Source: a virus | Direction: 5' to 3' (one strand) | Length of the DNA: 23,475 bases | Virus record (IMG/VR): IMGVR_UViG_3300042328_000382 | Location: 1-23,475 of that record | Shown here: positions 6,501-23,475 of the stretch, in pieces | Layout of the letters: each line of letters begins with the position of its first letter | Numbering within the stretch: the stretch's first letter is position 1 | The notes under the pieces: generated by a model | What the model saw: the letters and a program-made list of their open reading frames with translations, nothing else | Databases searched by the model: none | Told to the model about the DNA's origin: nothing | Program-made: the position numbers and the translations under genes

Positions 6501-8097
6501 TAGCCTTATTTGAACTAAATACTAATTCAGCTTCACGTCCAGGTTCTTTAGGATATTCTCTATACAGTGTAATATAATTAATACTAGCAGTACAAACAGC
6601 TTCTACGCAATATTTACCTGTTCTATTTAAGGCATGAAATCTATAAGTATCAACACCAGTAGTTACACCTTGTGCATTTGGATTCTTTACAAAACCAGCT
6701 ACACCAAATTGTGTAAACATTTCTGGAAAAGCATATTTAGAAAAATCTTTACCTGTATGTTTACCATCTTGCCATTGTGATTCCCATTTATAGAAAGTAG
6801 CAACAGGATTTATGGTTATTTCTGAAGTGGCTGAGATTGGAATATTAGCATCTTCATATAGCACCGGCCATGAAACTACATCTTCTTTAAAATTTCTAGC
6901 TTCATTTTTGAAATGTACAGTAACTTTGTTTAATTTAGTAGACGCATCTGGCCATATGATTTCAAGATCTTGCGACATAATTAAATCATCATCAGTCAAA
7001 GCTGCTACCGTGCTACCGTGCTTATTAATCAATGCTTCTAATGCTGTTGAACTTGTAGCTCTAACTAAATTTAAACTATACACACCACCGGACCAGACTA
7101 ACATAGCGCCCGACATTGTTGTCAAAATAGTCTCAATATTTTCTCGTAAAGGTTTTGCTGTGTCTAATGTTATATTACATTCAAATGTTTTACGTGTAGT
7201 AGCTACGCTAGTGTCACCGTTTATTTTACCACCAATAATAAATTGAGCATCCGCACCTGCAGCTGTTTTAAGAGGAATATCACAAATTGCAGCTGCCTCG
7301 ATAAAACTTTTAATATTGATCTCTAAATTTTCATCAACGCCCTTACCATATACAGTATTAGTTAAATAATCTAATAAGCACCATGCAGGATTATTAGAAT
7401 AGACTTTATTACCTTGTTTTTGAGGTATACCATTAGCATCTAAATACCATCTTTGAACTTTCAAACCTTCAATTAAGAATGTGACTTCAGGAATATTATT
7501 CCATTGTGGCGCATATTCATCTAGTTTAAAAGTACAATGTGCGTATGCAATACCTGTAAAATAGTCAGTAACTTTCTTAGCATTAGGGTGTGGAACATTA
7601 CCATTCGTACATACATCAATTTGCCAAGAAGCTTCTGGTAATCCGCCAGAAACTTTAGTAGCTAATTTGTGTGTAGAGTTATCATTTCTATATGCTACAT
7701 TAGGATTATCAGAAGGTTGATCATCAATCAAAATATCAATTACTTGGTTGATAGGTGCATGACCAATTACCACAGGTGTAGTTAATACTGAATTCTTAGG
7801 CGATACTCCGCTATCTAATAATTTTGCATTTTCAGCTACACCAGTAGGATCTATTCTTTTACTGAAACCTTCTGGTAATAAATGATGATCATAATGTGTA
7901 GCTATATGCGCATCTGCTCGTATCCCCGCAACTTTATTTCGTCCATATGTAATAGGAATAGGACTTGTGACCCCTGTAGATGTAATATCAACACCAGGAG
8001 TTTGCTTCATTGCTTCTGGAGGTGGTGCAGGTGGTTTTGGTTTATTAACAATTGTATAAATCATTACACCTAATTGAAATAAAAATTCAAGAGTCAT
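508..8097 (-). CDS. J-like tail tip / host-specificity protein with modular C-terminal region (2529 aa)
   Basis: This is a tail tip attachment protein of the lambda J type: it should close the distal end of the tail and contact the receptor. ATG at 8097 overlaps the previous TAA by 1 nt (TAATG) and follows GGGGG (8107-8103). An N-terminal hydrophobic stretch is followed by a proline-rich piece, then 'IPITYGRNKVAGI' (about 46-58) and 'NPAWCLLDYLTNTVYGKG' (about 237-254), both hallmarks of the J hub. Around 436-662 there is an aromatic-rich insertion. The hub resumes with YHAWMRAEELVRESR and LEPGDVF, before about residue 760. Beyond it are an FN3-like segment (about 790-915), Ig-like segments (about 920-1340), an Asp/Asn/Ser linker (about 1362), five tandem modules centred on DGY/DGF (about 1415, 1600, 1811, 2012, 2202), and a C-terminal run of YWLNT-type units (about 2250-2529). 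It is about twice the length of lambda J (1132 aa). The frame is intact. The hub assignment is strong; the domain names in the C-terminal half are inferred from pattern only. Confidence 0.9.
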   Translation of the reverse strand: MTLEFLFQLGVMIYTIVNKPKPPAPPPEAMKQTPGVDITSTGVTSPIPITYGRNKVAGIRADAHIATHYDHHLLPEGFSKRIDPTGVAENAKLLDSGVSPKNSVLTTPVVIGHAPINQVIDILIDDQPSDNPNVAYRNDNSTHKLATKVSGGLPEASWQIDVCTNGNVPHPNAKKVTDYFTGIAYAHCTFKLDEYAPQWNNIPEVTFLIEGLKVQRWYLDANGIPQKQGNKVYSNNPAWCLLDYLTNTVYGKGVDENLEINIKSFIEAAAICDIPLKTAAGADAQFIIGGKINGDTSVATTRKTFECNITLDTAKPLRENIETILTTMSGAMLVWSGGVYSLNLVRATSSTALEALINKHGSTVAALTDDDLIMSQDLEIIWPDASTKLNKVTVHFKNEARNFKEDVVSWPVLYEDANIPISATSEITINPVATFYKWESQWQDGKHTGKDFSKYAFPEMFTQFGVAGFVKNPNAQGVTTGVDTYRFHALNRTGKYCVEAVCTASINYITLYREYPKEPGREAELVFSSNKARKPWFWNRVSDMFNTDRYPGSYGLLSGSSSLNIGYYDGKTLCGATRLVNAGGSQTEITLNQNEEYFFRVEISYTRDTGYYWKYRNSAINTYNYRRFANYNPSSGVIYGVSFIDYDTGGTVLWQTGREYYKNFVITDAYSKTALQTAKSLHDELKAKDGGALLEGDFTLPGVSTIYHAWMRAEELVRESRYSFKITFKYLVRSMYLEPGDVFTLDSATLDWSNEPIPLKVTSSSLDDNNVCTISATYLSTDLYTPGVNLPNFNYNEVSPIYNTVIINANYFYFTAEQNQTVGSPGTLYVQAQNRYLAASYEYAACYSDTLDEDGELTNKDASGNLNFTVLEANSSQTFYEVPPTAAKYAVFRVRLYSLTNQWGAPSYSILEGAHTLGLTKQILTLASDTSVLFTGENVTQKKSILLTATTAIDAPPNLNYDWYINGVRDISLIGASVTYNLPTILTGDSLKIGVNIYLTVAEADIDEPGDTYDYTDYLTIPIFSGIDSPPRIVLSDDNIILNKSAITDSYSIPLTLTYYEAGAVKSIIDTYTAVGTNCTAIVTSTGISITEIDKDSANVYAIVTYGTLTAKVKITIIAGADVITAKLSSDSGKYYINYTAEGNIASSDENGINFTTILSVSDLTPYTFKYYVDDVEKDGVTNTFVYTADLIFKNMPQTLKVEVKELDKLIAADTVTILGVQENNSSIQLDLTNPFQILPISAGGTVSMSNTGTGLTVLLGNKKLSYTSTPLSSEDGDNGTYNLSIEKSNLTDIELSPVVDNDGQVSFADYAGITDNTKVATITFSVIVKDFDGNIISNTPAKIQKLYTQLSTELSDDLKEAIDNDKNNNSSNSTSIPTPIFATDSIVYVSDQNEDGTTEGTINWSIQTDFQDYDGYVVCYTETRTNSQNPLTAAEILKSSTKKILPKGTTSISITNLGTNRYVCAFVFAYRNIGTSTYDALLVDTPNNVLKNGTQGWLISNVAVSHLPTELSRYKDSIVLTAKVEAADGTLIPLSDMSANLQDFNSKNNTSVKSMLTPILGGAPTIVYDDTYSSSGNVDFVISFSVNTGDVDRPLADIDGFALLEVTSTSALSSSLKAYTPETMVTAPDTVFVDVNSHTNSDATSFRLYSVGFDERKATLYRNVYLFSYRVVDKATYDKAPAYGVGANKVNFHKFIKKGLSTSYFFATDIIKVNDTTTLTRWRDYTTLKGDKFNVNGNTITTSDIYDVSRNFQTVNDRSVNIPITPYNPGVNIPIITYDNTLNKNGNIDYILHFKDSNSEADPLVTADDSIDGFWIVESEVAEASTSIAAPTAQQIYDNPNKIIISAQSFQKDSYNVKNYYVRVKNAKPRTHRTLFIVGYREVSSNLVTKKNVEASSVVYNNPSKKLNTYIVSDVYRTHDNLSLSNYTDAITVAADNLQLSDGKLVGSSSLFESLADFNNKNPSSIAAITVLPTNMSLAYDTAKTYANGNVDVVFTFNYDYTGIAAADSIDGFCLYMAESKTNGNIAVPKYADMMVDPISKFIELNGEDLPTTLTTHSVVFPNVAADLFRTVFIFPYREARTKYFYDLYVSPSRKFTTGKAANIRYFMTTSQASPLRSHANSELYQAMTTAVMYGKVAVDDETYVLKDIVGDFVLTNQDNMAKTAALTGVTFSDTPITFEGNKDRVDVNVTWLYEGSETDIDGFLIDPQSSTKNNITRKTIDKIAGYYSAGPSIRTFKLQSQNLKDFFNFSVIPYHIISEQTYQKSYKTTVVKDRIGTVGNTRVVFHKDYTLSIANSQQYSRRDIQSASQPVSPVIGDYWLNTNGTGPDDTTTTAGIAPFVTAVFNGTTWEPIDAAEFKLKGITQTYLSTTEPGNQSGYYWKNTSTSDVSGVKAGDTVYFNSDLGIWISTSKTISQSLYIGLDTAKPSNMLEGNLYLTSNIIDGGNKLYNAKNGTWVAFASFAAGEIGTSKPAKTLTVTRYLQLAKVITKTPQSLPVYYYRNTTSDAWSIASTYDKKLIKSTSIPNKV

Positions 8098-8729
8098 TAT
8101 TTCCCCCAGTGTAATTCAGCACTTCTTGCTGATACATATACATTTTCAGCACATGTATCTTCTTTATTTCTTTCTTTAATCTTAGGATCAGAGAAATAAA
8201 TACCATTCTTTTGATCTAATCCATACATTGGAGATCCTGCTGTTAATTTAATCATAGATTCACCTATTTCATCAGTTCTTCTTGTATTAGTGACACCATT
8301 AATTCTTCCGGAATAAATTGTTAATATATTTTCAGGTGATGTGTTTATATCGCCATTAGCTGTAAATATTGCACTTACCTTTAAATGATTTCCTACTAAT
8401 CCCCAGTCATTAGCTGCAATAGCTAATACTACAGAATCTGTCAAAGTAACTGTGTATAACTCTCTATCTACAGATGTTGATAACTTCGGTGCTTGAATAC
8501 CAACAAGTGAACCATCTGCTAAAAATTCAATCTGAGTTAGTGGAATACCTGCGCCATCTGTAACAGTTATATTAGGAAATATAGAAGCTTTAGGTAATGT
8601 CATATTTACAAAATGAGATGTAGAAGCATATATTAAATTACCTGTAGTTCCTAATATTGATACTAAGATTATTGAGTATGCGCCAGGTGTATCTAACATT
8701 GCTTTGCTGTGATCAGATAACACTATCAT
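8097..8729 (-). CDS. Tail tip / baseplate hub-like protein (210 aa)
   Basis: This small protein sits between the 213-aa tip protein and the J-like gene, the place of lambda L in a lambda-type tail cluster. ATG at 8729 overlaps the previous stop (ATGA) and follows GAGG with a 7-nt spacer. The N-terminal half is beta-rich. The C-terminal half carries 'IYSGRINGV' (about residue 138), then LTAGSPMYGLDQ, and ends in VYVSARSAELHWGK, with a conserved-looking 'EDTC' just before. This order (YSGRIDGV, Asp/Cys-rich turn, terminal WGK) is what I know from phage tip or hub proteins encoded directly upstream of J-like genes. The final C could suggest a metal or Fe-S site as in lambda L, but only one cysteine is present in the protein, so I do not claim this. 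Role: probably bridges the distal tail ring and the J-like hub. Exact family unsure. Confidence 0.7.
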   Translation of the reverse strand: MIVLSDHSKAMLDTPGAYSIILVSILGTTGNLIYASTSHFVNMTLPKASIFPNITVTDGAGIPLTQIEFLADGSLVGIQAPKLSTSVDRELYTVTLTDSVVLAIAANDWGLVGNHLKVSAIFTANGDINTSPENILTIYSGRINGVTNTRRTDEIGESMIKLTAGSPMYGLDQKNGIYFSDPKIKERNKEDTCAENVYVSARSAELHWGK

Positions 8730-9369: not shown

Positions 9370-12300
9370 TTATCCTTTGTAATTTTGTTCTTTATTGTGA
9401 GTATTTACACCCGATGCAATAGAAGGCATCATACGATATACTTCATTGCGTGTTTGTCTAGAGATATCTCCAGTTATATTTAAATTAACTATTGTAGATT
9501 TACCCGCAGCGGTAGATGTTGATAATTGTTTACCTAATGGTGCAGAAGGCACAGCCATTACGCCTGCGGATACCTCACCTACTGAGCCGCCCATTGCGAA
9601 TTTATGAACTTTTCTGCCATCATTAATAGCTGCTAATAAATCTCTGTGCTGGCCTGCAGATTTAGCATTAATTACAAATTCGCCATTAGATAGCATTGCG
9701 GGAATCGAATCAGAAGTACCTGTTCCTGGTCCACTAATTAAGCCGCCTGTCGCATGAAACCCGAAAGAACTTGAACTCAAATAATCAGTAGATTGAAGCC
9801 CACCACCGCCAATATTCATGCCATAACTTGCACCGCTATAACCGCCTGCGCCTGCTGATGAGCCACTGCTACCGCTCTTAAATAAACCTAAGAAAGATGA
9901 ACCAAGGCCTGCCCAATTAATATCACCTCCGCTAGTTAATGCTTGTAGTGCATCCCCAATACCTGTTAAGAAGTTTTGCAATGGTTTGAATAGTTCATCC
10001 CATTTAATACCCATGAAGCCTTCTTTAACGCTATCAGTAACACTTGTTGACATGTCAGTAGCTTGTGCCGTAGGTACTGCACCTGCATCGGATTGTAATA
10101 CACCATAGCTTTGACCTGGTTGTGTACCATCTCGTGTACCGCCTAGACCGAATAATCCGCCCAAACGTGTAATACCGCCTTTAGCTAAATTGAATAAACC
10201 TGTACCACCAGCTTCTAAAAATTTAGTTGCACGACCACCTTTGCCAAACCCTAACCCTTGCGCTACACCGCCTGTAATAGATGTCATTGCATTATCAGCA
10301 ATAGAGCTAAACATTTTCTTTTTGAAAGTTCCAAATACCCCACCGCCTTGTGAACTATCACCAGATAACACACCTTTAAATGCATCGCTAAAACCTGAAG
10401 AAACACCAGCCGCATTTGCCTTACCTGCTTCAGATGCTGCTTTTGCACTCTCTGAAATAGCATCACCCATATCTTTTAAACCTTGAGTTAATTTATCTAC
10501 TTTATCTTGAAGAGCTGCAGTGGCTTGATTCTGATCTTTAGCCATTCTGAGTTTATTTTCAGCATCTAACAAATCATCAGTCATTAATTTAGCTTGGTTC
10601 AATTCCATTTCATTGAAATATGCTACAACATCAGCACCTATTTTTCCATACTGAGAAACAAATAATTGGCGATTTCCACCTGTACCTTTATTATATTCTT
10701 CTGCTTGTTTAATTGGGTTTACAGATAATGCAGCTTTAGCAGTTGCACCTTCAAGGTATGCTGTTTTAATTGTCAAAGATTCGTTTAAAGCTCTTATATA
10801 CTCTTCGACAGGTTGATTATTTGCGGCTGCTTGCGTGATTCTATCAGTCTGTGCATTAATACGATTTGTAAGACCTAGGATGTAATTTACACCTTCTTCA
10901 CCTAATTTAGCAGCAGCATCTTTATCTAATGCACCTGATCTAACTAACGCACCGCGTATATCTGAACCGAATGTTAATCGTTCTTCAGCAAATTTATCTA
11001 CTTCAGATGTATACTTATCTGTTAACTTTTTAGTAGCTTGCGCAACATTAGCAAATACTTCAGGTTTAATAGCTTGTTTAGCTTCTTTTGCCATTGGCAA
11101 TGGCTTACCAGTCTTTATACCAGCACGACCTTCATAAATTGCCATAAATTCAGCTTGTTTGTCGTATCCTTTACCTTCTTTTGCACCAGTTTGTCCTACG
11201 GCATAAGCTCTAAATGCATCAGGAACATTTTTAAACATTTTAAGATTTAAACTTAAATATTTAGCAATACCTCTGAGAGAATCTGCTTCATTAGTTTTAT
11301 CAATACCTAGAAAAGAAGCAGTAGCATTATTAAATTGGCCTAATCCGAAAGAAGTATCTTTTACGCCTGGTTTAACAATTGCTGCAATATTACGGCCTTG
11401 AGATTCATGTTGTATAACTGTTTTAACCATATCCGCAGTTACATTAGGAAATTCTTTAATTGCGTTATTAACTAAATCACTCCATTTTTCTACATTAGGT
11501 TCAAATACAGGAGAACCCTTTGGTAAACTTTTCCAACGATCTAAAATTGCAGTAGTATTCTTAGCTGCATCACTTTGAGGAAGACTTGTAGTTTCTGCAG
11601 GTGCTTCTTCTGGTTTGGTAACTAATGCATTAATTAGATCATCAACTTTTGTAGTTAAAGATTGCATTGTAGTATTAAGTGTTTGTGTCGCATCAATACT
11701 ATTTTCTAACGGTGTTTGCAATAATTTATTTAAGTCAGAACCTTTACTATAGAAATCATCCGCTAACTTCTTTAATACTTCAGTTAAATTTGATTGATCA
11801 TAAGAATTAATAATTTCTATTTGGGAATTAGATAAATCTGACATTCCTTTAATTTTATTAAACATTGCAAGATTAGATGCTTCTTGTGCTAATCCTTTAC
11901 CCTGATCAGGCATTGAGGCTAATCTATATGAACTAATATTCAAGTCAGGTAATCCCGCTTTAATTTTAGCAAGAGACGCATCAAAACCATCTGTAAATGA
12001 TTCTTCGACACTATTAGCAAGATCTTTAAAGAATGTTATAAATGCACCAACTTTTTCTACTTCTTTAAGTTTAATGAATATATTTTTAGCCTTATCTGAG
12101 AATTCATTACCACTTTCTGATAACGCATCTTCAAGTTCTGTTTTCAAAGCTTTAGCTGCACCTATTAAACCTCTTGTGATATTATTAGGTAATTTAGCTA
12201 ATTCTTTGTCTGCAATATCAGTCTTAAAGATATCTCTAACAACACTTGTTTTAGAAGTTATATCATCAAAACTAGATTTAAATCTCTCTAGATTCTTTTC

Positions 12301-15300
12301 AGTAGAAATTAATTCATTTTTAAACTTAACAAATAACGCAGGATTTTTCTCAGATGCAATCTTTTCTTTTAAAGATTCAACTGCAGCGTTCATATTAAAC
12401 AATGTCATCAAACTCTTTTTATCTACATATTTATGATTCATTAAGTCTGCAGCTGCCGATAATCTACCACCAGTTATAGTACTCTTTCTTGCTAAAGAAG
12501 ATTCAATAGCAGCTTTACGTCCTTTTTCTTCTTCTTCAACAATTTGCTTATATATTTCACGCTGTGCATTAGAAGAATTAGGTGTTTTAGCTAAGGCTGT
12601 TAATTGTTCTTTAAGATTAGCAATATGTAAAGCAGATTGTCTGAGTATTTCCGCTTGTTCTGGTAAAATTAATTGAATTTCAGTATCAGATAAATCGCTA
12701 ATAAATACTCCAAAACTTTCTTTAAGTGGAACTAAATCTACTGATTTTATCGAAGACACTAAACGCTCAGCTCTACTATTCAATTCAGCTAATTTTTCAC
12801 CATTATCTTTGTAAATTTGTTTTTGAAGATTTATATCAGCCAATTCGATACCGACACTACCAATTTTCTCTTTAGCATATCCTGCATACTCTGAAGTTAC
12901 TTTATTAATAGAATTGCTCAAAAGAGCTTCATCTGTTAATAATTTAGCAGTTAATGGGTTGGTTTTTGCCTTTTCCATTAAATTTTGCAATTCAGAATAT
13001 TTAGTAACTTCTAAATCTAAAGGTGATACATTTCCTGCTTCTTCAATACTTTTTCTAATATTAAGAATATCATTATATTCTTTTTGTAGTTTTTGGTATT
13101 GTTCGGTACCTTGTAATTGGCTCATTAATCCAGGTTTTTCAGGGATTTCAGGTAATGCTAATTTACCTATTGTAGATTTAAATTTAGTATCTCTTACTTT
13201 CGCTAAAGACCCTTCTAAATCGGTTTTAGATAAACTCTCAAAAGCTTTAGGTAATTGAAAACCCAATTCCTCAGAATAACCTTTAATAGATTCTCTTATT
13301 GACTTGTCCGCACTTGCATTTTTATCTGATAAGGCTTGACCATATTGTTTTAAAGATTCTGCAGTAATTTTAAGATTTACTCTTACTTCTATATTATCAG
13401 TTTCTTGAGCTTGTTGATCTAGTCTTTTAATTGATGCAGTCAATGAATCAAATTTACCAGCTAACTCGTCTGTCATTACAAAAGAATTTGGATCTATTTT
13501 AATACCTATTGCTTTAGCATCTGAAATGGTTTTATTGAATTTCTGCTGAGATTTAGCAGCATCTTCCATTTGCCAAATATATTTATTACGAGCTATCACC
13601 AAATCATTTAATTCTGCTATAAGTGGTTTTATTGCTTCTGAACGTTTATAAATATTTTCATCCAAATATTTTTGGCTTTTAATTTCAGGATTAGCAAAAG
13701 GTAATGCTTCTTTTACACTATTTATCAAATCTGGTGTTGCTTTATTTAATGTAGTTAATGCATTTCTAATGGATTCATCAAAAGGTGCTGTAATAGCTGA
13801 TGTATTTCTTTCAAAAGATTTATTAATATCGTCTAATACCATTGTCAAACTGGTATCATTCAATTTTACATCAACTTGATATAAATCTGGACTTGGTAAA
13901 TTATTAGTTCCAATTCTAGACGCAATTTCTTGATTTGCAGTTTTAGAGTTAAAGCTATAAACAGCTTTTTGCTCATTAGTCAATTCACCAATTTTTAAGC
14001 TTTCTTTAAGTTTAGGAATCCCTTTTTGTATATCAAACTTAGATTCAGATGTTGCACGTTTTGCCCACTCTTCTACAATTCTATTTCTATCTTGTAAATC
14101 TGCAATACTTTTATCTATCTCTTCACGGCTGCCTTCAATACTTGTTTTACGGAAATCATCAATACTATCAGCAAATTTAGAAACTGCACTATCTAATCCT
14201 TCTCTAACTTTTGGAGTTAACAGCTCACGATTCACTTGAGAGAGATCGTAACTAATAGACACACCTGCATTTGCAAGTAATCCTTTTTGCTGTTTAGACA
14301 ATCCAGATGTAAGATCTTTTGATTCATATTGGAAGCCTAAAATTTCTTTAAGCTTTACAATTACATCACTAAGATTTTCTGACCAACTTTTAGATGTATT
14401 TACAAATCCTTCAAATATAGCAAAAGCCATTGTAAGACCAGCTATTAATAAACCAATAAAACCTTTCTTTAAAGGAGTCATTGCAGATTCAATAATTGCT
14501 GTAGCTAAAGTTTTTCCTAATCTCCAGCCTATGATTGCACCAATTAGATTACCTATTCCTTCTAATTCTGGACGATGTAGTAAAACATTAGCAACATATT
14601 CTCCAGCAAAACCACCTGCAAGACTTGCTATTATACGAGTAATACCACCCATAGCTGCACCTAATAATGATACAGGTAACGTTAAGATTGAAGTGAATTG
14701 TGTATTAATAATGGAACGGAAACTCAACAGCATTACACCTAAATACGCTAATAATTGCGTAGTCTTACTTGTTACAGCTTCAATAAATGCATTTACAAAG
14801 CCGTATCCAGCTTGTTCTCCAGCTTTTGAATAATAGTTTATAAATGTTTCATAGCCTACAAAGGCCAATGTAACCGTAAAGAACGCTGCAGGACTTGCAA
14901 GTGCTGCGAATAGAGATTTTGTAGTATCAATAACTGTTTTAAGCCTCAGTAACAATGGCGCAAAATCCATTGTAAAAATGCCCTTGGCAAGCTCATAAAG
15001 ACCTATTGTAACTTCTTTTAATAAAGAAAAACTTAATTTTATAGTTTCCCATATACCTTTGCCAAAAGTCTTTAATAAGAATAAAAGAGCACTCCCAATA
15101 GCCGTTGCTATATTGTAAACAACATCCCAACCAATAGCTGAAAGTATTGAAAGTGAAATACCACTTGCAACAACTGCATCACCAATCTCTTGTGCGTAAT
15201 TTTGTATCTTTGCCTGAATTTGTGATAAGCCGGAAGACATATAATCGGAAAAGTCAACAAAAGCGGCTATAGCTAATCCAATAGCGGTTGCCCATACGAT

Positions 15301-18300
15301 TAAAAGGCCTGCAGCACCTACAATTGCCATTCTAAATAATAATGCATTTTTTATAAATCTTAAAATTTGAAAATTTATTGCTTCGATGCCCAATGAGGCA
15401 GCAAGCTTATTTGCAAAATGAACAGCAATTTTCATCATAGTTAATACAGCCCCTAGCATTCCTACAATTATAGCTGTATTGCCAAAAGTAGATAATGCTT
15501 TTGCAAGTTCGACAAATGGCGCTCCAATATCACGCCTTAACTGTCTAAACCCTTTCCAAAGACCTGTAATTGAATTTGTAAATGCATCAAAATACGAAAT
15601 ATCACCTTTGACAGCTCCACTGAGATTATCTAGTAAAATAGTCAATGGCCCCATTTCTTTAACAAGCGCTTGAGTTGAATCTGTTAATGCACTTACAGTA
15701 GGATCAATTGCTTTTTGAGTTTCTAGTTTGTATTTATATGCGCCTGTACTTGTGACTTCTTTAATTAAAGAAGTTTTTTCAGGTACAAAAGGTTTATTAA
15801 AATCACCAGCTTGCGCGGCTATTGAGAATTTTTCAAATTCAGCTTTACGATCTTCTACAATTTTAGTTAAACTTTTTGTAGTAGATTCAAGTCCTGTTGA
15901 AATTAATTTAGGCCCCATGAAAGGTAAATCTGATTCAGATAAGTTTGGATTTTTCTTTCTAACTACATTTTCAATAAAATTATCTACGCCTTCATTCCAT
16001 TTATCCTTTAAAGATTGCCAGCCTTCCTTAATCTTATCCATACGACTTTGAAAATATGTCGTATCAGTCATAGTAGTATCAGCAGCAGCAGTGGCTGTAT
16101 TAGGATTAAATACAGTTTTAGAAAGATTTTGGTTTTCTTGCATATTCGCAACTAACTGTGAATACATATCTTTCTTTGGCAATTCGGCTTGAGCTACGTC
16201 AACTTTTACTTCTGGCAGTTTATTTAATTCTTTTAAATTAGCGATTAAATAACCAAGTGCAGCAGTAACAGAAAGGATTGCGCCCACACGCATAAATTTG
16301 GCAAAGTCAAAAACCCTAACAAATGCCATTGCAATATCTTTAATAAATAATAAAAGAATTCCAAGGTTGCTCATTAGTTCTTCAATAAATACTAATGATT
16401 TGCTGAACATTTTCTCTAAGAATGGCGCTCCAGGATTTAATGGAGGGATAACTAAACTAAAAAGCAATGTTGCCAATTTAACACTATATGGTGCAATTGC
16501 AATTGCTAATTCATTTATCATTGGGAATAAAACACCCTTCTTTATATAAGAAAAGACTTCTTTCCCATATATAGCAAAACCACCTGTAATAACTTGAAAT
16601 ATTGTATGCGTTAAAGGACTATCTTTAAATACTACATCAAAAGCTCCAAGCATATCCAATGCTAGCGCAGTCATTCCAAGCATCATTGTTCTGCGGCCAG
16701 GCCCAAATAACGCTCTAGAAATAAAAGCTAAAGGACTTGCTGCCCATGTTGATGCTGAAGATCCCATAGCTCCTGAAAAGAATCTACCTACGCCTGCAGT
16801 CAAGGCACTTAGTGCAGCAATCTTTTCTGTAAATAAGCCAAGCATGCCAAATAATGAAAGTACTTTACTGCCAAAAAGCCATGTCCCTATTAATCCAAAG
16901 GCTGTATTTAAACCCATTCCTTCTAATAGTTTGAAAATGCCTTGTACAAATCCACCTATTGGGAATAAGCCTTCTAAAAGGCCCTGTCCAAATCCGCCTA
17001 AAAATCCAAATAATTGTTTCAGTATATTAGGCAATTCTGCAAATAAATAACCTATTGCTCCGCCTACAATTGAACCAACTACATGTCCTAGTTTTACCCC
17101 AATAGAAGCACTTGGTAAGTCTGCCCATAATTTTTCAATACTTGCCCACGCATGTACAGCTGTTAGCCATAGTGTATTTTTTATAAAAGAACCTATAGGG
17201 CCATCTGGTACAAACTTTTGAGCCAGTATTGCCATAAAAGTTGTCAAGAAAGCGTCAGCAAATTGAGGTGCAGATTTACCTACTGATTTTTCGATTGTAT
17301 CTGAAAGCATGCTACCTAAAGATTTTATTTCAGAAATAACTGTTTTAAATCCCTCACTTTCAATTACAATATTTACACTAGCTTGTGCTTCATTTATCCA
17401 TGTTTTAATTTCACTAAATGCAGATTTTATTTTGGTTTTAAATTCATCACTATTTAAATATTTAGGATCTTTTAAATTTTCCCAAACTTTAACAATAGTA
17501 TCTCCAAATGCAATTGCTTTTTCTTTTAATTCTAATAAAAATTTCTTTACATCATCAAAAGTACTTTTATATTTATCAACATCAATAACTACTGTAGATG
17601 TTTTTAATTCTGAGATGAATTGTTTTATAGAGCTATACAAGCTTTTAAAAGTAGAAATAACATTTCTAGCAAACGATATAATTTTACCTAAAGGCCCACT
17701 TGATAGTTTTTCTGATGAACTATTAATCTCTGAAATTGTATCTGTCCAATAAGAATGGCCAACTACTTTATCCCATATTAATCTGAAGTATTCTATAACT
17801 GTTTCGGAGAAATTACGTATAACAGCTGCAGCAGATTTCAATGAGGTAGAGATATTTATTTTAAAACCTAATTTACCAGAAATATTTTCTATTTCAGTAT
17901 TCAAGGCTTTTAGGTCTCTGACAATTTGTGTTTTAAGACCATCAAAAATACTTTTATACCATATGCTTATTCCTTCAACTTTAAAACTTTCTCTTAATTT
18001 TGAAGTTACTTTTTCGCCATATGTTTTAAACAAATCAGTATTTGTTGCAAAATCTTTAATAGTTTTATATAATAATTTCAGTCTAGATGAAATAAAATTA
18101 TATCCTGCATTAAATAAATTTGCATTTAATGAAATATTAATAACACTGCCAGTATCGCCTATTAATTCTATTAATGCCCATAATCCTCTTAATGGAGGAA
18201 ATATAGCTGCAACTATTTTTGCAAGAACAGTATTAAATGTGCCAAATTTATCAGAAACTGCTACTACCATCTCTACTAAGTCTTGGCCCAATAACTTACG

Positions 18301-19737
18301 TAATGTTGTGCCAAGCAGTGTAAGAGGTTTTGTTATAAAATCAAATTCAGAAAATACCAAATTATTCCCTAATGTTTTAAACATCTTTATTATAGGTTTT
18401 AATGTTCTGTCTATAATTAAATCTTTTAAAGATGTAAAACCCGGAATTAATCCACTAAGGTCTAATCCATAACTAGCAATTGATTTAGCCAACATTCCCA
18501 TTAAGTATTGACCGCCATTTGAAAATGTTTGGCCTATTACATAAAATTTAGTTGCTGATTTCTTAATAAATTTATTTCCCCAATCTTCATATTCCGAAAT
18601 TGTCATGTTTAACATGCTTCCAAATATTTTAGGAAATAATTTTATTGAGTTAATAGTTCCAGTAAATAAATTACCTTTATCAAATGTTTTTAATATTTTA
18701 CCAGTATTTTCTAAATTAATAAATACTCTTCGTATTGTATTAGTAGCGGCATGTTCCATTTCATACCACATATTAATTAAGAATTTTTCAATACCTGAAG
18801 CAGCTAATAATGTTTTTACTAAAATTATTGCTTTATTAAAAGCAAATATAAATGGATAAAAAGCATTAGATAATCTAGGAGACCATTCTCTCCAAAATAT
18901 TTCCATATTCAATGACATTAATTTAATATCATCAGCTAATGCAGATGCACTATTACCAGCTTTTAAAAATAAATTACCTAACCCTGAGGATATTCCAAAA
19001 CTTTTTGAGATTTCATTAAATAGAATTGAGAAGGACTCTCTGGCTTTATCAATTCCGCTACCCAGTGTTGCACCAGTTAGTTTAAACTTTTTCTCAATAG
19101 CTGTAGATTGCGTGAGTAAGGCGTTAAATACTACTTCTGAAGTTATACGGCCTTGATTGGCCATGTCGCGTAATGCGCCTACGGATACATTTAGCGAATC
19201 AGCAATCATCTGTGCAACAGGCAATGCTTGTTCCATTATAGAATTAAATTCTTCACCACGTAAAACACCTGAGCCTAATGCTTGCCCTAATTGCATCATT
19301 GCCGCTTTAAATCCTTCAGTAGAACCTCCAGCAACCATACCCGCCATTTGTAATGATTTAGCAGCTTTTGAAATTGATTCAGATGAAGCATTTAATGATG
19401 AACTTGCAATACCTAATTTAGCAAAGATCTGCGCAGTACTCTCAAAAGTAGAACGTGTTTCATTTGCAATTTTTTGCACTTCAATATATGCAGCACCAAA
19501 TTCTTTAGTAGCGCCTGTAACTAGTCTTATATTGTTCTCAATGGATGTAAAAGTAGAATCAATTTGCGTTAATGCAACAAGTGTTCCACCTACTGATAAT
19601 GCACCGGCTATTTTAGAAAATCCAGAAGTTACACTGGCTACGCTTTTACTAATAGATCCAACAGTACTATTTAAATTTTCTAAATCTCTTTGTGCCTTAT
19701 CGACTTTTGCTTCGACATCAATTACAATGCCTGACAT
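9370..19737 (-). CDS. Giant tape measure protein with internal lytic transglycosylase (3455 aa)
   Basis: Tape measure protein: sets tail length, fills the tube lumen and is ejected ahead of DNA. I choose ATG at 19737 because a perfect AAGGAG (19750-19745) precedes it by 7 nt. The longer reading from 19773 would begin inside a terminator hairpin. Residues about 35-205 match the tape-measure N-terminal domain (TIGR02675 type), including 'GSGVLRGEEFNSIMEQ', 'VSVGALRDMANQGRI' and a VVFNALL end. Residues about 860-1780 hold many hydrophobic, Gly/Ala/Leu-rich segments. About 1790-2700 is charged and helical. An SLT-type transglycosylase lies near 2750-2880: VIQHESQGR with likely catalytic E2778, then SFGLGQF and the YLSLNL/FRAYAVGQ region. 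A Gly/Ser-rich tract (about 3080-3330) precedes the typical C-terminal 'MLSNGEFVINAKSAGQHRDLL' region (about 3350). At 1.5 angstrom per residue the full length would span about 520 nm at most. The size is unusual; the identity is secure. Confidence 0.95.
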   Translation of the reverse strand: MSGIVIDVEAKVDKAQRDLENLNSTVGSISKSVASVTSGFSKIAGALSVGGTLVALTQIDSTFTSIENNIRLVTGATKEFGAAYIEVQKIANETRSTFESTAQIFAKLGIASSSLNASSESISKAAKSLQMAGMVAGGSTEGFKAAMMQLGQALGSGVLRGEEFNSIMEQALPVAQMIADSLNVSVGALRDMANQGRITSEVVFNALLTQSTAIEKKFKLTGATLGSGIDKARESFSILFNEISKSFGISSGLGNLFLKAGNSASALADDIKLMSLNMEIFWREWSPRLSNAFYPFIFAFNKAIILVKTLLAASGIEKFLINMWYEMEHAATNTIRRVFINLENTGKILKTFDKGNLFTGTINSIKLFPKIFGSMLNMTISEYEDWGNKFIKKSATKFYVIGQTFSNGGQYLMGMLAKSIASYGLDLSGLIPGFTSLKDLIIDRTLKPIIKMFKTLGNNLVFSEFDFITKPLTLLGTTLRKLLGQDLVEMVVAVSDKFGTFNTVLAKIVAAIFPPLRGLWALIELIGDTGSVINISLNANLFNAGYNFISSRLKLLYKTIKDFATNTDLFKTYGEKVTSKLRESFKVEGISIWYKSIFDGLKTQIVRDLKALNTEIENISGKLGFKINISTSLKSAAAVIRNFSETVIEYFRLIWDKVVGHSYWTDTISEINSSSEKLSSGPLGKIISFARNVISTFKSLYSSIKQFISELKTSTVVIDVDKYKSTFDDVKKFLLELKEKAIAFGDTIVKVWENLKDPKYLNSDEFKTKIKSAFSEIKTWINEAQASVNIVIESEGFKTVISEIKSLGSMLSDTIEKSVGKSAPQFADAFLTTFMAILAQKFVPDGPIGSFIKNTLWLTAVHAWASIEKLWADLPSASIGVKLGHVVGSIVGGAIGYLFAELPNILKQLFGFLGGFGQGLLEGLFPIGGFVQGIFKLLEGMGLNTAFGLIGTWLFGSKVLSLFGMLGLFTEKIAALSALTAGVGRFFSGAMGSSASTWAASPLAFISRALFGPGRRTMMLGMTALALDMLGAFDVVFKDSPLTHTIFQVITGGFAIYGKEVFSYIKKGVLFPMINELAIAIAPYSVKLATLLFSLVIPPLNPGAPFLEKMFSKSLVFIEELMSNLGILLLFIKDIAMAFVRVFDFAKFMRVGAILSVTAALGYLIANLKELNKLPEVKVDVAQAELPKKDMYSQLVANMQENQNLSKTVFNPNTATAAADTTMTDTTYFQSRMDKIKEGWQSLKDKWNEGVDNFIENVVRKKNPNLSESDLPFMGPKLISTGLESTTKSLTKIVEDRKAEFEKFSIAAQAGDFNKPFVPEKTSLIKEVTSTGAYKYKLETQKAIDPTVSALTDSTQALVKEMGPLTILLDNLSGAVKGDISYFDAFTNSITGLWKGFRQLRRDIGAPFVELAKALSTFGNTAIIVGMLGAVLTMMKIAVHFANKLAASLGIEAINFQILRFIKNALLFRMAIVGAAGLLIVWATAIGLAIAAFVDFSDYMSSGLSQIQAKIQNYAQEIGDAVVASGISLSILSAIGWDVVYNIATAIGSALLFLLKTFGKGIWETIKLSFSLLKEVTIGLYELAKGIFTMDFAPLLLRLKTVIDTTKSLFAALASPAAFFTVTLAFVGYETFINYYSKAGEQAGYGFVNAFIEAVTSKTTQLLAYLGVMLLSFRSIINTQFTSILTLPVSLLGAAMGGITRIIASLAGGFAGEYVANVLLHRPELEGIGNLIGAIIGWRLGKTLATAIIESAMTPLKKGFIGLLIAGLTMAFAIFEGFVNTSKSWSENLSDVIVKLKEILGFQYESKDLTSGLSKQQKGLLANAGVSISYDLSQVNRELLTPKVREGLDSAVSKFADSIDDFRKTSIEGSREEIDKSIADLQDRNRIVEEWAKRATSESKFDIQKGIPKLKESLKIGELTNEQKAVYSFNSKTANQEIASRIGTNNLPSPDLYQVDVKLNDTSLTMVLDDINKSFERNTSAITAPFDESIRNALTTLNKATPDLINSVKEALPFANPEIKSQKYLDENIYKRSEAIKPLIAELNDLVIARNKYIWQMEDAAKSQQKFNKTISDAKAIGIKIDPNSFVMTDELAGKFDSLTASIKRLDQQAQETDNIEVRVNLKITAESLKQYGQALSDKNASADKSIRESIKGYSEELGFQLPKAFESLSKTDLEGSLAKVRDTKFKSTIGKLALPEIPEKPGLMSQLQGTEQYQKLQKEYNDILNIRKSIEEAGNVSPLDLEVTKYSELQNLMEKAKTNPLTAKLLTDEALLSNSINKVTSEYAGYAKEKIGSVGIELADINLQKQIYKDNGEKLAELNSRAERLVSSIKSVDLVPLKESFGVFISDLSDTEIQLILPEQAEILRQSALHIANLKEQLTALAKTPNSSNAQREIYKQIVEEEEKGRKAAIESSLARKSTITGGRLSAAADLMNHKYVDKKSLMTLFNMNAAVESLKEKIASEKNPALFVKFKNELISTEKNLERFKSSFDDITSKTSVVRDIFKTDIADKELAKLPNNITRGLIGAAKALKTELEDALSESGNEFSDKAKNIFIKLKEVEKVGAFITFFKDLANSVEESFTDGFDASLAKIKAGLPDLNISSYRLASMPDQGKGLAQEASNLAMFNKIKGMSDLSNSQIEIINSYDQSNLTEVLKKLADDFYSKGSDLNKLLQTPLENSIDATQTLNTTMQSLTTKVDDLINALVTKPEEAPAETTSLPQSDAAKNTTAILDRWKSLPKGSPVFEPNVEKWSDLVNNAIKEFPNVTADMVKTVIQHESQGRNIAAIVKPGVKDTSFGLGQFNNATASFLGIDKTNEADSLRGIAKYLSLNLKMFKNVPDAFRAYAVGQTGAKEGKGYDKQAEFMAIYEGRAGIKTGKPLPMAKEAKQAIKPEVFANVAQATKKLTDKYTSEVDKFAEERLTFGSDIRGALVRSGALDKDAAAKLGEEGVNYILGLTNRINAQTDRITQAAANNQPVEEYIRALNESLTIKTAYLEGATAKAALSVNPIKQAEEYNKGTGGNRQLFVSQYGKIGADVVAYFNEMELNQAKLMTDDLLDAENKLRMAKDQNQATAALQDKVDKLTQGLKDMGDAISESAKAASEAGKANAAGVSSGFSDAFKGVLSGDSSQGGGVFGTFKKKMFSSIADNAMTSITGGVAQGLGFGKGGRATKFLEAGGTGLFNLAKGGITRLGGLFGLGGTRDGTQPGQSYGVLQSDAGAVPTAQATDMSTSVTDSVKEGFMGIKWDELFKPLQNFLTGIGDALQALTSGGDINWAGLGSSFLGLFKSGSSGSSAGAGGYSGASYGMNIGGGGLQSTDYLSSSSFGFHATGGLISGPGTGTSDSIPAMLSNGEFVINAKSAGQHRDLLAAINDGRKVHKFAMGGSVGEVSAGVMAVPSAPLGKQLSTSTAAGKSTIVNLNITGDISRQTRNEVYRMMPSIASGVNTHNKEQNYKG

Positions 19738-19744
19738 CTTTATA

Positions 19745-19750
19745 CTCCTT
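19745..19750 (-). promoter_or_regulatory. Ribosome binding site deciding the tape measure start
   Basis: AAGGAG on the minus strand, 7 nt before ATG at 19737-19735. It lies only 2 nt past the U-tract of the terminator hairpin. It supports the start at 19737 over the in-frame ATG at 19773, which has no such site and lies in the hairpin loop region. Confidence 0.85.
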
Positions 19751-19752
19751 AT

Positions 19753-19789
19753 AAAAAACCCCTTAGGAATCATTAGATTCTTCAGGGGT
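19753..19789 (-). terminator. Intrinsic terminator just before the tape measure gene
   Basis: On the minus strand the two arms are ACCCCTGAAGAATC (19789-19776) and GATTCCTAAGGGGT (19771-19758), with a TAAT loop (19775-19772). They pair over 14 positions with two internal mismatches, closed by a five-base ACCCC/GGGGT base. TTTTTT follows at once (19758-19753, sharing its first T with the stem). This is the standard layout of a Rho-independent terminator. It sits between the stop of the gp10-like gene (19798) and the tape measure ribosome-binding site (19750). No promoter is visible between it and the tape measure, so partial termination or antitermination is likely (inference). Confidence 0.8.
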
Positions 19790-19797
19790 GTGTTGTC

Positions 19798-20094
19798 TTA
19801 ATTAGCTGATGTTACAATGACACCATTTGCGTCTACTTCTGAGAAGGACAACAAAGTTCTCTCAATAAAATGAGATGGTGCTTGTTTACTAGAGCCTGCA
19901 TTTAGTTCATCAATGTATTCCACGTGATTAACTATACGTCCGTCTTCTATCTTCCATCCGTCTCTGGCATTACCTGTATCTACAGGTGTAGCATCTTTCA
20001 AAGCATCAATTAGTTTATGTAACTCCGCTTCTTTTTTGTTTTCGAATTTCTTTAATAATTCTTTTTTGAAATTCATATTTATTTTTACAGACAA
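19798..20094 (-). CDS. HK97 gp10-like neck/tail protein (98 aa, TTG start)
   Basis: The core 'TPVDTGNARDGW' and, after it, a valine-rich strand, HVEYIDELNAGSSKQAP and HFIE match the HK97 gp10 / minor tail family. Members of that family bridge head-tail connector and tail or help finish the tail. I place the start at TTG 20094-20092: it is one nt past the GT stop (TAA 20098-20096), and GGAGG (20104-20100) precedes it by 5 nt. The first ATG in this frame after that (20076) has no Shine-Dalgarno, and an upstream ATG at 20130 would overlap the GT gene by 35 nt. At 98 aa it is shorter than HK97 gp10. Family members usually sit in the neck cluster; here it stands between the chaperone and the tape measure. 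Family fairly clear, exact role inferred. Confidence 0.75.
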   Translation of the reverse strand: MSVKINMNFKKELLKKFENKKEAELHKLIDALKDATPVDTGNARDGWKIEDGRIVNHVEYIDELNAGSSKQAPSHFIERTLLSFSEVDANGVIVTSAN

Positions 20095-20095
20095 A

Positions 20096-20754
20096 TTATC
20101 CTCCAAATAAATTTTCGCCACCAGAGGCATTTATAAGCTTTTGAAAGAATCCAGAACGTTTGAAACCACTAGCATCAAATTCACCGTCTTTCTTATTTGA
20201 TTTTGGATTGTAAATAGCATCTAATGAAGTAAAAAGTTGCCAAGGTTTTTCTTTAACACCCTGTACCTGAATTAATTTAGCTGCCCTATCGTCAGCACGC
20301 CATTCTATTGGACGTTGTTCTAGATAGCTAAACCAGCCTAATAATTCTTCATAAGTCATTTCCTCATAAATTTTATATACTGGCATTTTTAAATGAAATG
20401 CTAATTCAAATATTGGCAATTCTTCTGCACTTAAGACGACTTTCCCGCATCTTGCCCTTGACCAAGACCTGAATATTTCATAATTTCATTAGAAAGTTTT
20501 GACAATTCATCCATTGGGAAACTATCAAAATCTGAATCATCAAGTTCAGTACCACCTTCTACAGCTGAACGAACAACTGATTTAAGTAACTCTAAACCTG
20601 CATTTTCATCTTTTTCAGCGTCTTTTGCTTTGTTTTGAATTTCTAAAACTTCTGAAACAGATAGCTTAGAAATCTTAACATCGCTGCCTAAGAATTTAAC
20701 TGTTTTGGTCATACGTTGACCAACAAGTGCTTTAATACCCTTTGCTTCTGACAT
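20096..20754 (-). CDS. Tail assembly chaperone GT fusion, made by -1 frameshift (219 aa)
   Basis: Extended form of the tail assembly chaperone, as lambda gpGT. Translation starts at 20754 and runs 105 codons to AAG (20442-20440). It slips back one base at GGGAAAG and continues from 20440 to TAA 20098-20096 for 114 more residues. The T frame has no good start of its own. It is open upstream through 'KVVLSAEELPIFELAFHL', and the TTG at 20419 has no Shine-Dalgarno. The T part has MPVYKIYEEMTYEELLGW, then 'RPIEWRADDRAA', and LFTSLDAIYN, the pattern of the downstream half of TAC proteins (DUF4035-like). In lambda the T part recruits tube protein while the G part coats the tape measure; GT is then absent from the finished tail. 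The G:GT ratio matters for assembly. Confidence 0.88.
20100..20104 (-). promoter_or_regulatory. Ribosome binding site supporting a TTG start
   Basis: GGAGG on the minus strand, inside the last codons of the GT reading frame, 5 nt before TTG at 20094. It is the only strong Shine-Dalgarno near the start of the gp10-like gene, so it decides for TTG over ATG at 20130 or 20076. Confidence 0.75.
20431..20754 (-). CDS. Tail assembly chaperone G (107 aa)
   Basis: Short, main product of the chaperone gene. I choose ATG at 20754 (MSEAKGIKALVG...), one nt after the stop of the previous gene, with AAGG (20766-20763) 8 nt upstream. The ATG at 20784 would overlap the previous gene by 29 nt and adds an unlikely decapeptide. 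The protein has 'TKTVKFLGSDVKISKLSVSE', a helical LEIQNKAKDAEKDENAGLEL region and an acidic SDFDSFPMDELSKL segment near the end. Such small, alpha/beta TAC proteins just upstream of the tape measure are typical. It is expected to bind the tape measure before tube polymerisation. It ends at TAA 20433-20431, nine bases past the slippery heptamer. Confidence 0.85.
   Translation of the reverse strand: MSEAKGIKALVGQRMTKTVKFLGSDVKISKLSVSEVLEIQNKAKDAEKDENAGLELLKSVVRSAVEGGTELDDSDFDSFPMDELSKLSNEIMKYSGLGQGQDAGKSS
20440..20446 (-). other. -1 ribosomal frameshift site GGGAAAG
   Basis: The minus strand reads GAT GCG GGA AAG TCG in the G frame, so the heptamer is G GGA AAG (20446-20440), the same slippery sequence as lambda G/GT. 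Slipping one base back gives GGG AAA and enters the T frame at GTC. An internal AAGGG (Shine-Dalgarno-like) lies 8 nt upstream, a spacing similar to known stimulators of -1 slips. The G frame stops nine bases later. Confidence 0.9.
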
Positions 20755-20755
20755 A

Positions 20756-20971
20756 TTACTTACCTTGATTAATTTTGCGTTCATCTAGTTGTGCTCGCAT
20801 TTGATGTAAAATTGAGAGTGTTTCGAAAGCTTCAGTTTTCTTATCTGGAGATAACGAATCATCTTTTGTTCTTTCGAATGTTTTATTAATACTAATATCG
20901 ATGCTTTTGAGCATATGTTTGACAGTAATGCCAACGACATACTCTAAGCTGAATGGTTTATCTTGAGCCAT
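20756..20971 (-). CDS. Small tail-module protein of unknown function (71 aa)
   Basis: Gene between the tail tube and the chaperone. ATG at 20971 follows an AGGA-like site with about 7 nt spacing; TAA (20758-20756) is one nt before the G start. The protein is hydrophilic and mostly helical in appearance. There is a 'LEYVVGITVKHMLKSIDISI' stretch in the first half and a 'FETLSILHQMRAQLDERK' helix at the end. No signal peptide, membrane segment or catalytic motif is visible. The tight coupling to G suggests a partner in tube or tape-measure assembly, perhaps an extra chaperone. I do not recognise a named family. Confidence 0.7.
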   Translation of the reverse strand: MAQDKPFSLEYVVGITVKHMLKSIDISINKTFERTKDDSLSPDKKTEAFETLSILHQMRAQLDERKINQGK

Positions 20972-20994: not shown

Positions 20995-21014
20995 GGGGGT
21001 ACCGAAGTACCCCC
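20995..21014 (-). other. cUUCGg tetraloop hairpin after the tail tube gene
   Basis: The minus strand reads GGGGGTAC TTCG GTACCCCC: a perfect 8-bp stem with a UUCG loop closed by C-G, the most stable tetraloop class. It starts 11 nt past the tail tube stop and lies in the 54-nt gap before the 71-aa gene. No T-tract follows (CATTCTAAAC), so it does not look like a usual intrinsic terminator. It may protect the 3' end of tube mRNA or mark a processing site (inference). Confidence 0.8.
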
Positions 21015-21025
21015 TCCTGTAATGC

Positions 21026-21622
21026 TTAGTTGACAGTCCAAGCACCTTTGATAGATGATTGTACAGTAATTGTTAATTTTGCAGTCATTGCATCTGTCAA
21101 GCTTGGTGTTACTTCTAACGCTTCGATTTTACCTAAGAAGTAATAAGAAGAATTCTCAGACGTAGCAATGCTGTTGGTAGTTGCATTATAACCTGCTGGT
21201 TCTTTGTCTAACAAAGTAAATCTAAATAAACGTAATTTACCGTCAGCAACTTGAGGTGCTGCTACTGAAGGTGAACCAGAATTTGCAACAGTTGCTGCAC
21301 CACCTAAATAACCATCTGCCCAGTAAGATGGGATATAGTTAAGTGTGATTTCCATTGTTGGAGAGTCAGCTTGACCTTGAATTTGTTTAGATGTTTTAGA
21401 ACCGTATTCAGGAACTTTAACAACGTTAGCAGGAATACCAATTGCAGGAAATTCTTTAATATTGGTAATGCGTTGATATTCACCAGTGTTTGGTGCACCA
21501 TCAAAATAAGAAGATACATCAGAATTTTCATCAAATGTGATAAAAGTTGCTTCAGTAACAGTTGCAGTAGTAACAGATAAGTCGGTGAAGCGAGCTGCGC
21601 CAAGTGTAGAAATGTGTGCCAT
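21026..21622 (-). CDS. Major tail tube protein (198 aa)
   Basis: Forms the stacked rings of the non-contractile tail tube. I choose ATG at 21622 (MAHISTLGAARF...): AAAGGA (21634-21629) is 6 nt upstream. The longer reading from 21670 overlaps the terminator gene and has no such site. Features include 'ARFTDLSVTTATVTEATF', a GAPNTGEYQRITNIKEFP segment, then VPEYGSKTSKQIQGQAD with PTMEITLNY. The last two are the kind of 'yGs...Q..GQaD.Pt..i.lnY' strands seen in tube proteins of lambda-like phages. The C-terminal strand LTITVQSSIKGAW ends the fold. Length and position, after the terminator and before the chaperone, fit. It should be one of the most abundant late products. No Ig-like C-terminal domain is present. 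Confidence 0.83.
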   Translation of the reverse strand: MAHISTLGAARFTDLSVTTATVTEATFITFDENSDVSSYFDGAPNTGEYQRITNIKEFPAIGIPANVVKVPEYGSKTSKQIQGQADSPTMEITLNYIPSYWADGYLGGAATVANSGSPSVAAPQVADGKLRLFRFTLLDKEPAGYNATTNSIATSENSSYYFLGKIEALEVTPSLTDAMTAKLTITVQSSIKGAWTVN

Positions 21623-22891: not shown

Positions 22892-23475
22892 TTAAGAATG
22901 GAATACAGGTAAGATACCTAATGATAATGCAGATTGTGTTTTACGTGTCCATACACCGCGTGTGCTAGCAATAACTGAAGCTGCAGTAAGTGCTTTAGTA
23001 ACACCACCTTCAACAACACCCATATAATCAGCATCAGATGGGAATGCAGTTTTAGAACCATTCCAGTCGTAACCAGCAGGCGCCAATACATAGCCCCAAC
23101 GATTCCAAATAGAAGTTGTACCGCCACCTTTATATTTGTTAGCATCACGGTAAACTTCAGTTGCATCAGGAACAGTTAATTGTTCAAATGCAATAGCACC
23201 TGGAAGCACAATGAATGAAGTTTTAGTGCCAACTACGTCAATACCAGCACCACCATTGATTTTAGCTAGTTCAGCAGATGACAATGATTGGTTAGCACGT
23301 GTAGTAATTAAACGGAATTTGCCATTGAAAATTGTATTAAAGTTAATGTTACCATCAACAACAGTTGTTTCATCAACGAAGTTTGCACTACGGAATGAAG
23401 CCAAAGTTTCAGGAGACACAACTAAGTATGCCCACTCTGGTTCATAATCTTTAAATGCCATACCAAATGCATTCA
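22892..23475 (-). CDS. Major capsid protein, C-terminal part (partial, 5' end off right edge)
   Basis: The frame is open from base 23475 to TAA 22894-22892, giving 193 visible residues. The ATG at 23461 is internal: residues N-A-F-G lie before it without a stop. The visible part has 'FRLITTRANQSLSSAELAKI', a 'TSFIVLPGAIAFEQLTVPD' segment, YRDANKYKGGGTTSIWNRWGY, 'VLAPAGYDWNGSKTAFPSD' and a final helix-strand region ending in SLGILPVFHS. The 'RWGYVLAP.GY.W.G....FPSDA.Y' stretch is like C-terminal regions of coat proteins in siphophages with this gene order. It would be the main shell subunit. The N-terminal arm, scaffold region or any protease are not in view. No decoration gene follows; the adaptor starts 10 nt later. 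Confidence 0.75.
   Translation of the reverse strand, partial: NAFGMAFKDYEPEWAYLVVSPETLASFRSANFVDETTVVDGNINFNTIFNGKFRLITTRANQSLSSAELAKINGGAGIDVVGTKTSFIVLPGAIAFEQLTVPDATEVYRDANKYKGGGTTSIWNRWGYVLAPAGYDWNGSKTAFPSDADYMGVVEGGVTKALTAASVIASTRGVWTRKTQSALSLGILPVFHS

Follow-up and report, generated by a model that had tools for sequence, protein, structure and literature searches.

A phage tail contains hundreds of tube subunits and few tape-measure molecules, a disparity that is usually credited to translation. Whether transcription might take part as well is the question raised by a viral DNA of 23,475 nucleotides (nt) (IMG/VR record IMGVR_UViG_3300042328_000382, positions 1 to 23,475; this whole stretch is referred to as the window), in which a hairpin followed by six Ts is wedged between a neck gene and the tape-measure gene. 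A preliminary description of the sequence had drawn attention to this hairpin, and its presence is confirmed here. We consider it likely that hairpin and U-tract form an intrinsic terminator and act, much as Tphi does in phages T7 and T3, as a constitutive attenuator that part of the transcripts pass. Because such a stop signal is kept precisely at the neck/tape-measure junction despite sequence turnover, transcriptional attenuation becomes a directly testable answer in siphophages.

Hairpin and U-tract at the tape-measure junction

On the minus strand the junction runs from the stop codon of the neck gene (19800-19798) through GACAACAC-ACCCCTGAAGAATC-TAAT-GATTCCTAAGGGG-TTTTTT-AT-AAGGAG-TATAAAG to the ATG of the tape-measure gene (19737). 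Its three elements are:

19759..19788, minus strand: terminator hairpin CCCCTGAAGAATC-TAAT-GATTCCTAAGGGG, recognised by its fold, by comparison with shuffles and by conservation in relatives
19753..19758, minus strand: T6 tract, the predicted RNA release point, read from the sequence; kept in close relatives, T5 in a second lineage
19745..19750, minus strand: Shine-Dalgarno (SD) sequence AAGGAG of the tape-measure gene, read from the sequence

The stem is bounded by the pair C19788-G19759, with A19789-U19758 as a possible closing pair. The minimum free energy fold has 11 pairs (6 + 5) separated by a 3x3 internal loop and a loop of 4 nt; the 14 positions originally counted are reached only if mismatches are included, whereas the T6 stands. 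With a folding free energy (dG) of -13.6, or -15.3 with the closing pair, and a basal CCCC/GGGG, this is a stable GC-rich hairpin, and the U-tract (19758-19753) follows the stem directly, as in intrinsic terminators. The spacing of 2 nt between T6 and the SD sequence (19750-19745) was likewise correctly described. An equally good fold of the 81-nt region around the hairpin (z = -2.8) arises in 1 of 200 shuffles. Scored with the d'Aubenton-Carafa function, the hairpin reaches d = 17.1 and is the sole positive site in the window, the next best scoring -6.7; a site as good occurs in 2 of 200 shuffles of the whole 23.5 kb strand and in none of 2000 local shuffles. A simple consensus scan of the window does not list the hairpin, apparently because it tolerates no internal loop, and its terminator-like sites are equally numerous in shuffles and in the window. 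The latter result is what a functionless chance hairpin would lead one to expect, but the hairpin beats the shuffles and its position is conserved while its sequence changes, and the probability of a chance origin is negligible. At gathering scores Rfam 15 has no match in 20 relatives, and the window gives only sub-threshold chance matches.

Between the hairpin and the tape-measure gene the promoter scan found no sigma-70-like site and the motif scan no phage-type promoter motif, in agreement with the earlier reading. The short distance to the SD sequence had also suggested that the hairpin hides or exposes the ribosome-binding site, and the U-tract can indeed pair weakly with AUAAAG. Such a translational switch, in which hairpin and U-tract govern access to the tape-measure ribosome-binding site, is very improbable: the SD sequence is about equally open with the hairpin (accessibility 0.78) and without it (0.85), and accessibility in relatives ranges from 0.25 to 0.84 with no pattern.

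Conservation before the tape-measure gene

The preliminary description had proposed seeking the hairpin in related phages, and there it is present. Its 5' arm and loop are found unchanged in 11 IMG/VR contigs; wherever the flanks were read it separates neck from tape measure, also in three contigs (L028, L029 and L031) with diverged coding sequence. In L008, with a tape-measure N-terminus 45% identical, the hairpin is kept while its 3' arm has changed and gained pairs. A second lineage (L009-L011, L013 and L014) has another stem, CCCCTTTATTATTACC-TTAT-GGTATTAGTGGAGGGG-T5 (dG about -20 to -22), at the same place, where the phages DSS3_PM1 and EBPR siphovirus 1 also have their own stem versions.

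In a set of 20 named phages whose tape measures have related N-termini, hairpin and T-tract precede the gene in eight of the nine that have an annotated gap of at least 40 nt, and convincingly in none of the 11 with a gap under 20 nt. The DSS3_PM1 hairpin was recognised by folding, and in YC#06 the hairpin overlaps the annotated tape-measure start, a call that is probably wrong. A wider survey covered 80 viral loci with a DSS3_PM1-like tape measure: hairpins with T-tracts are found at 35 of 59 non-identical pre-tape-measure junctions versus 62 of 263 other junctions in the same loci (P = 2e-7). Where the gap is at least 45 nt the figure is 23 of 26 by hand count; of the three exceptions, one has a hairpin whose T-tract is poor, and in two the start appears to be mis-called. 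No prophage relative was confirmed among genome contigs.

This turnover of stem sequence bears on the view that the hairpin serves chiefly as an element for RNA processing or for the RNA 3' end, which would protect or mark the head/tube mRNA after nuclease cleavage while causing little termination. Stabilisation of 3' ends by hairpins is common, and a GC-rich hairpin lacking a T-tract after the tube gene (20995-21014) could act in this way. A pure stabiliser would need no T-tract, yet the T5 or T6 that adjoins the stem persists as the stem sequence changes, and we regard this view as unlikely.

In many pre-tape-measure hairpins the basal GCCC stem is directly followed by GATGG, whose 3' partner drifts (CTGTC, CCGTC, CCATC and others). 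Examples are L077, L085, L086, L092, L093, L096, L099, L102, L120, L121 and L128, and further L131, L136, L137, L141 and L142, all within 140 nt upstream of the tape-measure start. Hairpins with GATGG are found almost exclusively here, the one exception being L135, where extra open reading frames (ORFs) separate hairpin and tape measure. The GATGG hairpins have no Rfam match; RNAalifold on their sequence alignment, in which the stems were not aligned, returned no pairs, and the resulting covariance model has no structure. A leader peptide starting at the ATG of GATGG was considered and rejected, as no SD sequence precedes it and no conserved residues are apparent by eye. We give only a small chance to the idea that the hairpins before tape-measure genes, many of them with a conserved GATGG in the 5' arm, make up a separate RNA element linked to the tape measure in a broad siphophage group, one that would terminate transcription and also bind a factor adjusting tape-measure synthesis during infection; if true, it would provide dedicated control of the tail-protein ratio.

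Polymerase, candidate promoter and proposed read-through

Which enzyme would meet this terminator? A T7-type RNA polymerase is encoded in all four relative records searched (G001, G002, G003 and G005), with matches to PF00940 (E 7e-68), to T7 RNA polymerase as the best solved structure (E 7e-44) and to phrog_414 (E 4e-119), and it is also present in DSS3_PM1. In G001 the gene is broken into two ORFs that flank a small third one (G001:C1:71476-74446, minus strand), possibly by an intron, intein or homing insertion, while in G003 it is a single ORF. Besides this separate polymerase, a Mu-F-like head protein of 1463-1878 amino acids (aa) between portal and capsid (G001:C1:28016-33652, minus strand; G003:C1:16196-21511, plus strand; DSS3_PM1 39768-44159) shows a weak but repeated C-terminal RNA_pol (PF00940) match and is, by this similarity, a candidate virion RNA polymerase in siphophages.

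A search of intergenic k-mers yielded the motif ACCCCGTTAAATTAACCCTAA, whose core occurs in seven sense and no antisense copies per genome in G001 and G003, and not at all in shuffles. Directly upstream of scaffold and capsid it forms a tandem pair, with a spacing of 114 nt in G001 and 85 nt in G003. The motif is a candidate phage promoter, judged from sequence. In six contigs (L022-L025, L028 and L030) the window's hairpin lies 5.1-5.3 kb downstream of the tandem pair, and no copy of the motif is found between pair and hairpin or after the hairpin; the window itself has no sense-strand copy. AATTAACCCT also corresponds to the first ten bases of the phi10 promoter in the T3 record, an identity that is suggestive only. 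The motif, often in tandem about 114 nt apart, recurs in many of the loci L158-L260; the first tandem copy is followed by a C-rich stretch and the second by AT-rich DNA. DSS3_PM1 has a sense-only motif of its own, ATAGG-NNN-CGTTAAAG (10 sense and 0 antisense copies in 50 kb). Its form ATAGGKKRCGTTAAAG, at 3657, 7756, 21640, 21731, 25096, 25927, 37729, 37763, 37852 and 47925 (L076), is a candidate promoter of that phage's own T7-type polymerase.

In the attenuator model, transcripts would start at the tandem pair of candidate phage promoters that immediately precedes scaffold and capsid, and would cover capsid, connectors and tube protein, then chaperones and neck. Some would end in the U6 tract at 19758-19753, and the remainder would read into the genes for tape measure, tip and fibres, for which no separate promoter is recognisable. 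The outcome would be many copies of head/tube mRNA and few of tape-measure mRNA, and the transcribing enzyme would most likely be the phage-encoded T7-type polymerase. Read-through would set the ratio of head/tube to tape-measure products because there is no recognisable promoter between terminator and tape measure. We favour an attenuator because the layout matches that of T7 and T3, together with published read-through and efficiencies of termination: T7 genes 11 and 12 are expressed only through read-through of Tphi (PMC5592923), and hairpin termination by phage polymerases is 12-86% efficient, T7 RNA polymerase at Tphi reaching 54% (PMC11347151). The proposed division into high-copy and low-copy units thus stands in so far as a conserved element separates the two with no recognisable promoter between them; masking of the ribosome-binding site and antitermination of the lambda Q type find no support. 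The Q antiterminator family PF06530 has no match in the four relatives, other antiterminator types not having been searched, and a T7-type polymerase is encoded instead.

The same negative result bears on whether the hairpin could be a relic or insulator, either a former moron-gene terminator or a stop for stray transcription, through which late transcripts read fully. Putative terminators annotated before the tape measure in HK97 and ES18 do follow genes annotated as (possible) morons, and an extra ORF apparently lies between hairpin and tape measure in L135 and in L118, L129 and L131. In the window, though, the upstream gene is a core neck gene and not a moron, the neck-first order is the same in relatives, diverged lineages keep the hairpin although its sequence has changed, and no Q-type antiterminator was found in the four relatives searched. 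We hold such a relic or insulator to be improbable.

Several points weigh against the attenuator model. The stem is interrupted by a 3x3 internal loop and is of moderate energy, and some related phages have no terminator at all before the tape measure. The window is a fragment that does not reach the polymerase region, and both polymerase and candidate promoter are known from relatives and not from the window. The 3' part of ACCCCGTTAAATTAACCCTAA is unlike T3 and T7 promoters. Finally, a promoter-like copy in DSS3_PM1 (47925) lies directly after the tube gene, so that promoter layout varies.

The recognised genes of the window all lie on the minus strand, in the order capsid (C-terminal part), connector, tail terminator, major tail protein, a small ORF, chaperone G/T, neck/tail-completion, hairpin, tape measure, two further genes and a 2529-aa tip/fibre-type gene. 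Those that bear on the division into two units are:

22892..23473, minus strand: major capsid protein, truncated at the end of the window; abundant upstream-unit product (phrog_247, E 1e-14)
21026..21622, minus strand: major tail (tube) protein, likewise an abundant upstream-unit product (phrog_158, E 1e-8)
20431..20784, minus strand: tail-assembly chaperone G-like gene of the upstream unit (position, length, frameshift site)
20096..20446, minus strand: chaperone T part, reached by -1 frameshift at GGGAAAG, 20446-20440 (phrog_337; heptamer in canonical frame)
19798..20130, minus strand: neck/tail-completion gene directly before the terminator (phrog_169, E 4e-8; phrog_5, E 5e-8)
9370..19737, minus strand: tape-measure gene, 3455 aa, directly after the terminator (22 PHROG matches, almost all of them to tape measures, the best with E 1e-53)
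508..8097, minus strand: 2529-aa tip/fibre-type gene of the downstream low-copy unit (PF24058, weak PF13550; position)

The tape-measure start at 19737 is fixed by comparison with the close relatives L003 and L004. The ATG at 19773 inside the hairpin, the first in the program's ORF, was rejected because one extra A in these relatives puts it out of frame. GGGAAAG (20440-20446, minus strand) is a lambda-type slippery heptamer for the G-T tail chaperone and is present in G001 and G003 too. The GC-rich hairpin after the tube gene is a strong UUCG-type structure, GGGGGTAC-TTCG-GTACCCCC (minus strand); L025, L026 and L028 have the same shape with other sequences, and L009-L011 no clear counterpart.

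G001 and G003, two relatives of 77-78 kb, have nearly all genes in one direction, and intergenic DNA makes up 3-5% of their genomes. A fast scan found eight and five strong sense-strand terminators, respectively, a raw count only moderately above shuffles; 12 of these 13 lie at gene junctions, mostly no more than about 30 nt from where the next gene starts. The junctions that correspond between the two genomes are those before the tape measure, before DNA polymerase A and before a ligase-like protein of 437/455 aa, and that at a 162/177-aa gene after the fibres. Both genomes also have a terminator between a promoter-proximal unit (in G003 an SSB-like protein of 156 aa plus one gene) and the DNA polymerase. 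Because the design recurs before the DNA polymerase, it suggests modular promoter-terminator units setting dosage throughout the phage. In both lineages a terminator-like hairpin GCCCTGACTTCGGTTGGGGC with T5 stands between an AGGAG SD-like sequence and an ATG (G001 sense-strand 74889, plus-strand about 2112; G003 51766).

Comparison with known systems

The closest parallel is Tphi of T7 and T3, also a hairpin with a U-run between abundant structural and low-copy tail genes, where read-through serves as the downstream route. Promoters stand before scaffold and capsid there (phi9 and phi10 in the T3 record, followed by Tphi), as the candidate does in the relatives here, and these relatives share a T7-type RNA polymerase. 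The differences are that the present element occupies the neck/tape-measure boundary of a siphophage, places the tube protein on the high side, has its U-tract abutting the next ribosome-binding site and belongs to genomes with several terminators rather than one; T3 moreover has promoter phi11 5 nt after Tphi, whereas none is seen after the hairpin here.

DSS3_PM1 (Naomviridae) and EBPR siphovirus 1 share the order neck, terminator, tape measure and the hairpin with T5/T6 directly before the ribosome-binding site; the tape-measure start MSGIVI is shared with EBPR siphovirus 1, and DSS3_PM1 resembles the relatives in its T7-type polymerase. Their stem sequences differ, and neither record annotates a terminator there. 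Late-gene terminators for which no promoter is known have been described in SPP1, Felix O1 and Corndog (PMC6316719, PMC3185647, PMC4351075). These stem-loops lie near the end of the tube gene or inside late clusters and read-through is left open, similar to the present case, but they take other positions relative to the tape measure, and the transcribing enzymes, where known, differ.

In the open-access literature we found no mapped RNA ends before a tape-measure gene and no description of the breadth of conservation before tape-measure genes, of the link to a T7-type polymerase in siphophages or of the GATGG subgroup. Putative terminators at this junction are already annotated in HK97 (8398-8422) and ES18 (13262-13283), in each case a hairpin and T-tract some 20 nt ahead of the tape-measure start. 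In HK97, a lambdoid phage, the host polymerase transcribes the late genes. The HK97 and ES18 terminators follow genes annotated as (possible) morons and ours a neck/tail-completion gene; the element in the window is a well-conserved further instance of a terminator at this junction.

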